A stretch of DNA of 64,000 nt, taken from positions 806,001-870,000 of the forward strand of contig JAIXQR010000007.1 of assembly GCA_027485645.1 (NCBI GenBank), in the 5' to 3' direction. The translations under genes and the position numbers were made by a program. Source of the stretch: a bacterium (lineage in GTDB: Bacteria; Armatimonadota; Fimbriimonadia; Fimbriimonadales; Fimbriimonadaceae). Shown here one piece after another: positions 23,335-26,620 of this stretch (positions are counted from its first letter, which is position 1; every line of letters begins with the position of its first letter). The notes beneath the pieces are model-generated. The model was not told where the DNA came from, did not search any database, and was given only the letters and a program-made list of their open reading frames with translations.

Positions 23335-23721
23335 GCCTGAGCGCCTCGCCCGTGTACGCTGGACGGTTCACAATTCGAAGCTGGATGCCGTTCTAAGTAC
23401 CACTAAACTTAAATCTGTTCCAACGGCACAGTATTTGTTCATAAAATGAATCCGTCACGCAAAAGCGCTACGTTGAGCTAAGACTGCGGCAGGAATAATG
23501 CCCCATGAGATGGTCGGCGCCGAGGCAAGCGTGAGTCTGCGTGCCAAAAATTCGGTTCTGGATCGTGTGAGCCGAACTGCGACTTCACTGAACTCGCTGA
23601 TCCGTGGTCACGCTGAAAAACTCATACGCTGAGGAAGCGCGAACCAAGTGTATTCGGCACAAACAAATCTTGTGACTTTCCCATCGCAATCACCATCCCG
23701 TGGAGATTGGAGCAATTGACA
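23335..23721. other. Intergenic region between ppdK and the PEP-CTERM gene
   Basis: 387 nt. No convincing gene. A 44-codon frame (23498-23632, ATG after AGGA) has no recognisable product and unremarkable codon use. The last bases hold the GGAG ribosome-binding site for the ATG at 23722. No clear promoter is seen. Confidence 0.5.
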
Positions 23722-24294
23722 ATGAACAAACCTCGCCTGGTTCTAGGAACCATCGTCACTCTAGCATCGCTCTCTACAGCACATGCCCAGTTTTTCCCCG
23801 TAAGCTTTAACGTTCACTATCCTGGTTACAACGAAAGTAGCAAATGGAATGGTCCAGTTGGTGAAAAACATCTGATGACCGTTTCCTTCCAGAACTTTAG
23901 CGACACGGCCTACAACGCACTAGATTGGGAGTTTGTCCTACTTGATCGATCCCCGTACAACGATGCTTTCAAAAACCTCGACGTTAAGATCAAGTTGTCA
24001 ACGCGTTTCGGTCGAGATGAAATTATTGCGCCTCTACAGTCTAGAACTGTTTCACTGTACTACAACTATGAAGCACTAACTGCAACTCAGCCGGCTTATG
24101 GCAGCTTTCGTGGGGTCTTCCGACTTCGACACGAAGGGCAGCTGTATGTGAGTCACTACTATTCACACACTATCTCTCCACCGATTGCCCCACCGCCAGT
24201 ACCAGAACCTGCTACGGCATTGCTTTTCATGCCCGCGGCTGCTTGGATTATCCGGAAACGACAGAGTACTCAGCGAACCAAGACAGCAGCCTGA
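23722..24294 (+). CDS. PEP-CTERM sorting-signal protein
   Basis: 190 aa. An N-terminal signal peptide (LASLSTAHAQ) starts a mature beta-rich domain. The C-terminus shows the PEP-CTERM tripartite signal: VPEPATALLF, a hydrophobic stretch, and a basic end (IIRKRQ). Such proteins are cleaved and sorted by an exosortase, usually in EPS-producing bacteria; no exosortase gene lies in this window. Start 23722 is chosen for GGAG 9 nt upstream; a TTG at 23707 is an alternative. Base composition is more AT-rich than its neighbours. Confidence 0.8.
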   Translation: MNKPRLVLGTIVTLASLSTAHAQFFPVSFNVHYPGYNESSKWNGPVGEKHLMTVSFQNFSDTAYNALDWEFVLLDRSPYNDAFKNLDVKIKLSTRFGRDEIIAPLQSRTVSLYYNYEALTATQPAYGSFRGVFRLRHEGQLYVSHYYSHTISPPIAPPPVPEPATALLFMPAAAWIIRKRQSTQRTKTAA

Positions 24295-24385
24295 TCGTTA
24301 GTATCTTGATACTGGCCTTGTAGTCAGCGAAATTCTTCTTGCGCGCGTAGCCCAGTCCCGCACGAATACGCCGCCATCTCACCCT

Positions 24386-24415
24386 AAGTCCCCAGACCTC
24401 AATGTCTGGGGACTT
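24386..24415 (+). terminator. Terminator-like hairpin after the PEP-CTERM gene
   Basis: 12-bp perfect stem (24386-24397 with 24404-24415), 6-nt loop, then TGTTGTCCTT. Confidence 0.75.
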
Positions 24416-24553
24416 TGTTGTCCTTGCCCCGACTCATCACGTAGTCCATTGAACACCGTGATCGCAAAACGGTCGATGACCTGTCTCACCGTAAACCTAA
24501 TAGCCTTAGGTCGGTTACCGAATTCGAACGCAGGTTAGGTCTTCTAGCGGAAA

Positions 24554-24891
24554 ATGTCGATGATCCAGACCTCTCGCAAAGCCGCGCAGTTCGAAGAATC
24601 GGTCATTCGAGAAATGACTCGGCTGTTCCTTGCGCGAGGTGATCGCCCCGGCGTGAACCTGGCCCAAGGGTTCCCCGACTTCCCCGCTCTGGCGGCGATG
24701 AAGGATGCCGCGTGCGAAGCTATTCAGGCTGACGTCAATCAGTACGCCATCACCTGGGGTGCCCCATCGCTCCGAAACGCGATTGCCGACAAGACCGAAC
24801 GCTGGTATGGCCATCGACCGGTTCCCAACCTGAAATCAGCGCGGCTTGCGGCGCAACGGAGGTGATGCACGCCGTGATGTATCCGGGTTAA
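24554..24891 (+). pseudogene. Remnant of a class I/II PLP aminotransferase
   Basis: The first about 92 residues (QTSRKAAQFEESVIREM, NLAQGFPDFPA, YAITWGAPSLRNAI) match the N-terminus of kynurenine or methionine aminotransferases (YbdL-like). After VPN at 24829 the reading continues in another frame as EISAACGATEVMHAVMYPG before a TAA at 24889. CGATE is the expected cofactor-region motif, so a single base has been lost near 24830. The remaining roughly 280 residues are absent. The gene is dead: frameshift plus 3' deletion right beside the toxin-antitoxin cluster. Confidence 0.85.
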
Positions 24892-24910
24892 GTCCCAGAA
24901 TTGGTGCGGT

Positions 24911-24938
24911 GGTAGAAAGAGTGCTGTAAACTTCTACC
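24911..24938 (+). promoter_or_regulatory. Operator/promoter of the orphan vapB (shared motif, copy 1)
   Basis: Inverted repeat GGTAGAA (24911-24917), 14-nt spacer, TTCTACC (24932-24938), ending exactly at the ATG. A -10-like TAAACT (24927-24932) lies in the spacer and 6 nt before the ATG. The identical arms and spacing recur before the next vapB. Confidence 0.75.
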
Positions 24939-25178
24939 ATGATTCTGAGCATCGAAGATCAGGGGGTCCACGCGCTGGCGACCAAGCTAGCGCGTGATAA
25001 CGGCAAAACCGTGAGCGACATCGTACGCGAAGCCCTGATGCTCTATCAAGAGCATCAAGAGAAACTGAGTCGCGCGAAAGTCATTGCCGAGCTTCGAGGG
25101 TCTGCCAAGGCCGGAGCGAATCCGAACTTCACAGACAACGACTTCCTGTACGACCCAATCTACGGCCTGCCGCAATAG
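24939..25178 (+). CDS. Orphan VapB-family antitoxin
   Basis: 79 aa. The N-terminal DNA-binding half (IEDQGVHALATKLARDNGKTVSDIVREAL) is of the Rv0623/PSK-like VapB type. The C-terminal toxin-binding tail ends in LYDPIYGLPQ, the family's YD-GLP ending. No PIN toxin follows: the next gene is another VapB 45 nt on. The start abuts the operator, so the mRNA is probably leaderless. It may be a solitary antitoxin left after toxin loss, or may neutralise or co-regulate the adjacent VapC. Confidence 0.87.
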   Translation: MILSIEDQGVHALATKLARDNGKTVSDIVREALMLYQEHQEKLSRAKVIAELRGSAKAGANPNFTDNDFLYDPIYGLPQ

Positions 25179-25194
25179 AAACGGATGCAGAGAA

Positions 25195-25222
25195 GGTAGA
25201 AACATTGGCGTATACTTCTACC
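25195..25222 (+). promoter_or_regulatory. Operator/promoter of vapBC (shared motif, copy 2)
   Basis: GGTAGAA (25195-25201), 14 nt, TTCTACC (25216-25222), touching the ATG at 25223. TATACT (25211-25216) is a good -10, again 6 nt before the start. Same architecture as copy 1. Confidence 0.8.
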
Positions 25223-25474
25223 ATGACCATGAATATCAAGGACGAAGAGGTTCATCGCCTTGCTCGTGAGCTTGCCGACCGAACCGGGCAAAGCATGACC
25301 CAGGTCGTGCGAGAGGCTCTGGCAGAGTACGACGCGAAGCTTAAAAATGCGGACAGTGAAGAACGGTTCGTCCGAGCGCTGCGAGCTCTAGAGGGATCCG
25401 GCGCAAAGTCTGGACTTACAAATCAGGAAGCAGACACCATGCTCTACGACTCTGAAACAGGAATGCCAATTTGA
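25223..25474 (+). CDS. vapB: VapB antitoxin
   Basis: 83 aa from MTMNIKDEEVHRLARELADRTG, the same family as the gene at 24939, ending LYDSETGMPI. It represses its own promoter and sequesters VapC in known systems. The stop (TGA at 25472) overlaps the TTG start of the toxin (TTGA), a typical coupled TA arrangement. The in-frame upstream codons to 25205 lie inside the operator, so ATG 25223 is preferred. Confidence 0.9.
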   Translation: MTMNIKDEEVHRLARELADRTGQSMTQVVREALAEYDAKLKNADSEERFVRALRALEGSGAKSGLTNQEADTMLYDSETGMPI

Positions 25475-25857
25475 TCGTTGACACGTCTGCGCTGATCTCA
25501 ATTACCACCGGCGAATCAGATGCCAGCCTTCTGAGATCGAAGTTAGAGCTTGCAAGGGTGAGGCAGATCGCCGCGCCGACCGTTCTTGAGACATACATAG
25601 TGCTTGATCGACGGAACCTCAAGGACTCGGCAGAGCTCGTCGACCTCCTGCTGGTCGAGCGACTAGAGGTGATCACGTTCGACCATGACCTCGCCTTGCT
25701 GGCCCGTGAAGCCTATCGGCAATTTGGCAAAGGAACCGGGCATCCCGCGCAGCTCAACTTTGGCGACTGCTTCAGCTACGCCCTGTCGAAGCGCACCGGC
25801 TATCCGCTACTTTGCGCAGGTAACGATTTTCGTCAGACGGACATTAGAATCGCTTAA
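25471..25857 (+). CDS. vapC: VapC toxin (PIN-domain ribonuclease)
   Basis: 128 aa, TTG start. PIN acidic residues: Asp4 in MIVDTSAL, Glu in VLETYIVLDRR, and Asp in NFGDCFSYALSK, with a further Asp near the end (GNDFRQTDI). VapC toxins usually cut tRNA or the sarcin-ricin loop; the target here cannot be told. Overlaps vapB by 4 nt. Confidence 0.92.
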   Translation: MIVDTSALISITTGESDASLLRSKLELARVRQIAAPTVLETYIVLDRRNLKDSAELVDLLLVERLEVITFDHDLALLAREAYRQFGKGTGHPAQLNFGDCFSYALSKRTGYPLLCAGNDFRQTDIRIA

Positions 25858-25895: not shown

Positions 25896-26246
25896 ATGGA
25901 GGTTTCCGCAACCGAGTTTAAGATCCACTGCCTCAATCTTTTAGATCGAGTCCAGGAGACTGGTCAGGTTCTGCGCATCACGAAGCGAGGCAAAGTTGTG
26001 GCAGAGTTACACCCTCCAAGCAACCCGGCACCGGCTGTTCCGGCTGGCTTTGGGCTACTGGCCTCCACCGGCAAAATCCACGGTGACATCATCTCCCCCA
26101 TCGAAGACGTCCCCTGGGAAAACCCGGCCGAGGTGTCTTCGGCCATGCAATACGGCCTCGAGACCACGCGCATAAACGCGCAGTTTGTCGCCGAAGAGAG
26201 CCGGGCCTTTGATGTCAGCCCAGAGCCTATACGAGACCAGAAATGA
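25896..26246 (+). CDS. Phd/YefM-family antitoxin
   Basis: 116 aa. MEVSATEFKIHCLNLLDRV and LRITKRGKVVAELHPP are the Phd/YefM DNA-binding fold. Residues from about 45 on are a Pro-rich linker and a toxin-binding region. It is longer than most (75-90 aa); the last 25 residues (ending EPIRDQK) are not typical. The TGA overlaps the ATG of the next gene (ATGA), so it pairs with the PIN toxin. Start ATG 25896 fits both the family N-terminus and the -10 spacing. Confidence 0.87.
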   Translation: MEVSATEFKIHCLNLLDRVQETGQVLRITKRGKVVAELHPPSNPAPAVPAGFGLLASTGKIHGDIISPIEDVPWENPAEVSSAMQYGLETTRINAQFVAEESRAFDVSPEPIRDQK

Positions 26247-26620
26247 TCGTTCTCGACACCCACATCCTGATTTGGTACGCCCTCGGCAGTCCGCAACTCT
26301 CCCCCTCGCGCTTGCAGCAGATCCAAGCTGCAAGCCCGAGGGTTTTTGTCTCGGCCATCACCCTTTGGGAAGTCGAGATGCTGCTGGAACGTGGTCGTGT
26401 CAGCGGCTTTAGCGTAAGTGATCTCCGCAAAGTCATCGCCGTTTCCGGATTTCAGGAAGCCGTTCTTTCTGGAGACATGGCAGTGCTAAGCCGACGCCTA
26501 GCCCTGCCCCATCACGACCCTGCCGACCGGTTCATTGCCGCAACTGCGATGACGATGCACGCGACGCTCGTCACCAACGACGTAAATCTACTCGGCCACA
26601 CGTGGTTGCCGACTATTTAG
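26243..26620 (+). CDS. PIN-domain toxin paired with the Phd-type antitoxin
   Basis: 125 aa. MIVLDTHILIWYALG carries the first catalytic Asp, SAITLWEVEMLLERG the Glu, and DPADRFIAATAMTMHATLVTNDVNLL the last Asp pair. This is the PIN subgroup (VapC/MazF-unrelated) that commonly partners Phd/YefM antitoxins. The start overlaps the antitoxin stop by 4 nt. Third antitoxin-type gene in 1.7 kb. Confidence 0.93.
   Translation: MIVLDTHILIWYALGSPQLSPSRLQQIQAASPRVFVSAITLWEVEMLLERGRVSGFSVSDLRKVIAVSGFQEAVLSGDMAVLSRRLALPHHDPADRFIAATAMTMHATLVTNDVNLLGHTWLPTI

Follow-up and report, generated by a model that had tools for sequence, protein, structure and literature searches.

Two exact operator copies before a toxin-less and a toxin-linked vapB gene in a Fimbriimonadaceae genome: VapB1 as a candidate spare antitoxin controlled in trans by VapB2-VapC

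Toxin-antitoxin modules combining a PSK/Rv0623-like VapB antitoxin with a PIN-domain VapC toxin, such as Mycobacterium tuberculosis VapBC30 (PDB 4xgq), are among the described systems closest to the locus reported here, together with FitAB of Neisseria gonorrhoeae, which forms a DNA-bound hetero-octamer (PMC3384007). Base reading by an antitoxin strand is documented for Escherichia coli RelB, whose strand makes base contacts through S3, N5 and R7 and in which the R7A substitution weakens operator binding (PMC2812701). Orphan antitoxins have mostly been regarded as remnants, as regulators of unidentified pairs or as anti-addiction genes (reviewed in PMC7354431), and a leaderless layout is known in which a TANNNT box lies about 12 bp 5' of the start (PMC3160421, PMC12340547). 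In this work, we analysed a 64,000-nt stretch of a Fimbriimonadaceae genome (hereafter, the window), in which two adjacent PSK-type vapB genes are followed by one vapC gene.

The first gene, vapB1 (24939-25178, plus strand), encodes an orphan PSK-type (PF07704) antitoxin of 79 aa that carries Ser4 and Glu6 in its DNA-reading strand and has kept its C-terminal ..FLYDPIYGLPQ tail; the second, vapB2 (25223-25474, plus strand), encodes a PSK-type antitoxin of 83 aa with a canonical MTMNIK strand; and vapC (25471-25857, plus strand), which begins at a TTG overlapping the vapB2 stop, encodes a PIN-domain toxin of 128 aa (60.5 bits) whose acidic residues in DTSA, LE, NFGDC and GNDF were all found by inspection. 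Both antitoxins pass the curated cut-off of the Pfam family PSK_trans_fac (PF07704; 28.3 bits), with 32.0 bits for VapB1 and 67.6 bits for VapB2, and the alignments and the VapB1 model display the RHH N-terminus and the C-terminal toxin-binding tail (LYDExGLP) by which the family is recognized. The structure predicted for VapB1 retains the RHH fold, with helices at residues 8-21 and 25-59 and a mean pLDDT of more than 90 across residues 11-40; its top fold matches are CopG, Arc, a VapBC and FitAB, all statistically weak. The two proteins are 34% identical, and VapB2 matches M. tuberculosis VapB30 over its full length (E 3e-4).

A PIN toxin gene lies directly 3' of vapB2, as in a type II VapBC module, whereas vapB1 has no cognate toxin and is therefore classed as an orphan antitoxin and not as a module. 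Only 16 nt separate its stop from the operator of vapB2, so there is no room for a toxin gene of its own, and vapC stands behind vapB2 only, in agreement with the preliminary description of this DNA, in which one of the two VapBs had been regarded as toxin-less. Elsewhere in the genome we found no PSK-partner-type VapC without an antitoxin, and thus the VapC of its neighbour is the only partner candidate seen for VapB1. The locus shares with the VapBC30 type the PF07704 membership and the overlap of vapC with the vapB2 stop, but it has two vapBs per vapC and a full operator before each of them, and the VapB1 strand carries an acidic residue. The antitoxin is of the RHH type, as in FitAB, and here too the operator overlaps the promoter and its two half-sites are spaced as a two-headed complex would require; however, the antitoxin belongs to another Pfam family and the operator is different. 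As in the anti-addiction orphans (PMC7354431), vapB1 encodes an intact antitoxin without a toxin gene, yet unlike the orphans described there it lies directly 5' of a complete relative with the same operator, so that control in trans would be built into the arrangement. Directly 3' of vapC, a Phd-type antitoxin/PIN toxin pair is located (25896-26246 and 26243-26620), with a -10 box TACTTT 6 nt 5' of its ATG; this pair also stands beside vapBC in G017, a genome of the same genus.

The motif GGTAGAA-N14-TTCTACC, which had been described as occurring twice, each time ending at the base before an ATG, was found with zero mismatches at 24911-24938 (operator 1, abutting the vapB1 ATG at 24939) and at 25195-25222 (operator 2, abutting the vapB2 ATG at 25223 and orthologous to the G017 operator), both on the plus strand. 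The embedded -10 boxes reported with it were likewise seen, TAAACT at 24927-24932 and TATACT at 25211-25216 (plus strand), each ending 6 nt 5' of the respective ATG. The arms of operator 1 have one further matching base per side (TGGTAGAA/TTCTACCA), an extension that operator 2 lacks. Across the whole 3.19 Mb genome the motif has exactly two copies, both directly 5' of the adjacent PSK-type vapB ATGs, and its reversed control pattern has none; base composition predicts 0.008 copies, with a probability of at least two of about 3e-5. Two exact copies are not a product of chance, and a random recurrence of the motif in the genome, raised earlier as the observation that would count against it, is ruled out. 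When up to three mismatches were allowed, the genome-wide scan returned 58 operator matches versus 153 for the reversed control. The third PSK vapBC of this genome (C3:579645) has no full operator and displays GGTAGAG...ACACC at another spacing.

The two -10 boxes are predicted to drive leaderless promoters of vapB1 and of vapB2-vapC, placing the +1 at the start codon (for vapB1, at the A of its ATG or an adjacent base); a consensus -35 was not detected at operator 1 or operator 2. The -10 position is not a trait specific to this pair, as the same offset recurs genome-wide: in 400 kb of the window's genome (G000 C1:1-400000; L053-L072) with crude gene calls, TANNNT ended 6 or 7 nt 5' of candidate ATGs 26 and 18 times, respectively, versus about 5 times at other offsets, and was located 6-7 nt before the ATG at 44 of the 339 calls. 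In position and sequence, both boxes correspond to the leaderless -10-adjacent promoters described previously (PMC3160421, PMC12340547), although, unlike these, they are predicted to sit within a repressor operator; the promoter would lie inside the operator because it abuts the gene. We detected no terminator separating vapB1 from operator 2, and transcription from promoter 1 may therefore run on into vapB2-vapC.

For a family-wide comparison, the 70 nt 5' of each PSK-type vapB start were collected from 28 genes of the order or phylum and from a sample of 45 genes of another class, reached via the genome of locus L014. GGTAGAA was the top 7-mer of both sets in a motif-blind count (17 of 28 and 15 of 45 genes), and GGTRGAA in either orientation preceded 20 of 28 and 16 of 45 PSK vapB genes, the dinucleotide-shuffle means being 0.75 and 0.57. 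Convergent half-site pairs (n = 28, several cases being interrelated) were offset by 8 bp (6), 12 bp (1), 19-22 bp (18) or 29 bp (3), a quantisation as would be expected for a two-headed repressor. Furthermore, a blind scan of the operator plus ATG over 84,980 genomes yielded 14 places, two of which are PSK vapB-vapC loci (L020, corresponding to G017, and L014 of a Proteobacteria MAG). Among open-access papers, we found none that connects GGTAGAA with VapB operators in its title or abstract. An operator specific to this pair is ruled out, given that the half-site is family-wide in PSK vapB genes; the predicted operators of the window follow the family grammar, and their arms by themselves do not tie vapB1 to vapB2. 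A further orphan PSK vapB with one GGTAGAA half-site was observed in G020 (L045 1501-2799), where it is followed by an FRG-domain protein instead of VapC.

The DNA-reading strand bears on which protein may regulate which gene. Using the pattern of alternating core and exposed residues, we aligned the PSK strand MxLNIK to RelB as x2/N4/K6; Lys occupies position 6 in 62 of 85 aligned PSK VapBs. VapB1, with the strand MILSIE, has Ser4 and Glu6 in place of the family Asn4 and Lys6, and its Glu6 falls at the position of RelB Arg7. An acidic residue 6 occurs in 3 of the 40 half-site-bearing PSK VapBs (VapB1, L045 and G534_a), all without vapC, versus none of the 35 with vapC, an association (Fisher p = 0.001) that is post hoc and based on three cases of partly related sequences. 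As a hallmark of orphans, Glu6 is weakened by the occurrence of an acidic residue 6 in vapC-linked VapBs as well, although these have no GGTRGAA half-site. Lys6 is kept in two of the five toxin-less VapBs with a half-site (G477_a and G533_a), so that loss of the strand is not general among them, and the L014 VapB has Thr at residue 6 in the alignment, yet a perfect operator. The substitutions in VapB1 make control of vapB1 by VapB2-VapC likelier than the reverse, and we infer that vapB1 is more likely the regulated partner, with VapB2-VapC acting on both operators. The cross-regulation suggested in the preliminary description is thus plausible in one favoured form, namely VapB2-VapC over vapB1, although the identical arms and the -10 boxes that had prompted it are family-wide and genome-wide, respectively; its alternative suggestion, an antitoxin that also controls the promoter of its neighbour, would with VapB1 as the regulator run in the less likely direction, given Glu6 and Ser4.

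Comparison within the genus indicates the order of events at the locus. In G017 the corresponding chromosomal position, likewise preceded by the pyruvate phosphate dikinase-like gene found in the window, carries a single operator-vapB-vapC and then the Phd/PIN pair seen in the window as well, and the stretch with operator 2 and the 5' part of vapB2 (25189-25339) is 82% identical between the two. A segment of 1.85 kb with operator 1 and vapB1 (23335-25188, plus strand) occurs neither at the syntenic G017 locus nor in the 19 other genus members compared, being unique to the window genome among 20 members of the genus. Operator 2 is thus the older of the two, and vapB1 was added. No vapB1 orthologue was found, nor were homologues found on plasmids and phages. 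A recent tandem duplication of vapB is ruled out by the 34% identity between VapB1 and VapB2, while VapB2 and the G017 VapB share 59%. Just 5' of operator 1, at 24554-24865, a methionine-type aminotransferase gene is represented by a 5' fragment of 103 aa, and its remainder was not seen nearby. The middle of the module, comprising the 3' part of vapB2 and the 5' part of vapC (about 25340-25677), is strongly diverged from G017, with both flanks conserved. This pattern of a vapBC locus at a fixed site (here window 25340-25677 against L080 of G017), in which operator, vapB 5' part and vapC 3' part are kept and the vapB tail and vapC 5' part are strongly diverged, was also observed in L142/L143 and L137/L138; between L142 and L143, the upstream DNA and the VapB N-termini are nearly identical, but the tails and VapCs differ. 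It looks like an exchange of the toxin-antitoxin interface with the regulatory part staying in place.

Arrays of a comparable layout were identified in three related genomes of another class (G477, L117 1013-2034; G533, L135; G534, L141), in which vapB_a-vapB_b-vapC is arranged with GGTAGAA-N13-TTCTACC before each vapB, and the combination of a toxin-less vapB and a duplicated operator is read from the sequences as having arisen independently there and in the window. The a-type vapB, toxin-less in G477 and G533, is followed by its own vapC in G535, and toxin loss following displacement of a vapBC does seem to occur. Between G477_a and G533_a, dN is 0.033 and dS 0.53, which shows that the toxin-less vapB_a is under purifying selection and is being kept. 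It is possible, and we propose it tentatively, that the window and these three genomes represent a recurring arrangement: a toxin-less VapB placed under a copy of the operator of the neighbouring vapBC, keeping its tail and operator, free to lose the base-reading residues of its strand and governed by the neighbouring VapB-VapC repressor, so that antitoxin supply would rise when the toxin complex is depleted.

The reading that we favour, at somewhat better than an even chance, is that the VapB2-VapC complex shuts both promoters and that VapB1 serves as a spare antitoxin under its control in trans. Each vapB would be read from its own leaderless promoter, with transcription starting at its own ATG, and the -10 and the start would lie within an operator whose two GGTAGAA half-sites are separated by about two turns of DNA; a complex of VapB2 RHH dimers and VapC would bridge the half-sites, cover the -10 and the +1 and block RNA polymerase. 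As half-sites and spacing do not differ between the operators, the same complex most likely represses both, and VapB1, which has an intact operator and tail but a changed DNA-reading strand (Glu6), is more likely regulated than regulator. Loss of VapB2, for instance by the proteolysis that is general for antitoxins of type II systems, would relieve both operators, so that VapB1 and VapB2 would be produced at the same time. The operators and their uniqueness in the genome, the half-site common to the family, the leaderless layout, the extra segment and the altered strand are read directly from sequence, and from them we infer occupancy of both sites by VapB2-VapC, weak DNA binding by VapB1 and any toxin-buffering role; VapB1 could still bind DNA in mixed dimers with VapB2.

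Alternatively, VapB1 and VapB2 could both be functional repressors at their own sites, with an inherited half-site and incidental cross-binding. Since GGTAGAA is family-wide, identical arms require no special relation between the two genes, and VapB1 scores above the family cut-off and is modelled with RHH helices and weak CopG, Arc and FitAB fold matches; nevertheless, we consider such independent autoregulation rather unlikely, owing to Glu6 and Ser4 in the base-reading strand, to the lack of a VapC co-repressor of its own and to the vapC-linked VapBs with an acidic residue 6, which do not use the GGTRGAA half-site. The same Glu6, at the RelB Arg7 position, speaks against VapB1 as a free regulatory antitoxin that represses operator 2 and uncouples vapB2-vapC from its own feedback. 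Despite arms and spacing identical at both operators, this reading is highly improbable, as the PSK score of VapB1 is 32 bits versus 67.6 for VapB2 and no precedent was seen among the examined loci.

A further reading takes vapB1 as a decaying leftover of a displaced vapBC that lost its vapC1 and has no current role, its operator being intact because the event is recent and perhaps still bound by VapB2-VapC. The extra segment, unique among the 20 genus genomes and with the aminotransferase fragment as debris, and the a-type vapB, paired with its own vapC in G535 and toxin-less in G477 and G533, are consistent with it. We hold it to be unlikely, given that the vapB1 reading frame is intact, that its promoter, operator and tail are all present, and that the toxin-less vapB of the independent arrays is under purifying selection.

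Taken together, two unrelated groups point to a predicted family-wide operator element for PSK-type VapBs, GGTRGAA with offsets of 8 and about 19-22 bp. With operator, orphan and intact module within 1 kb, the question of whether an orphan antitoxin is debris or a useful component becomes testable in a single promoter region, and trans control of VapB1 makes a clear-cut prediction, namely that VapB2-VapC binds both operators and VapB1 neither. If true, the locus would represent an antitoxin surplus wired into a repression loop without a toxin of its own.
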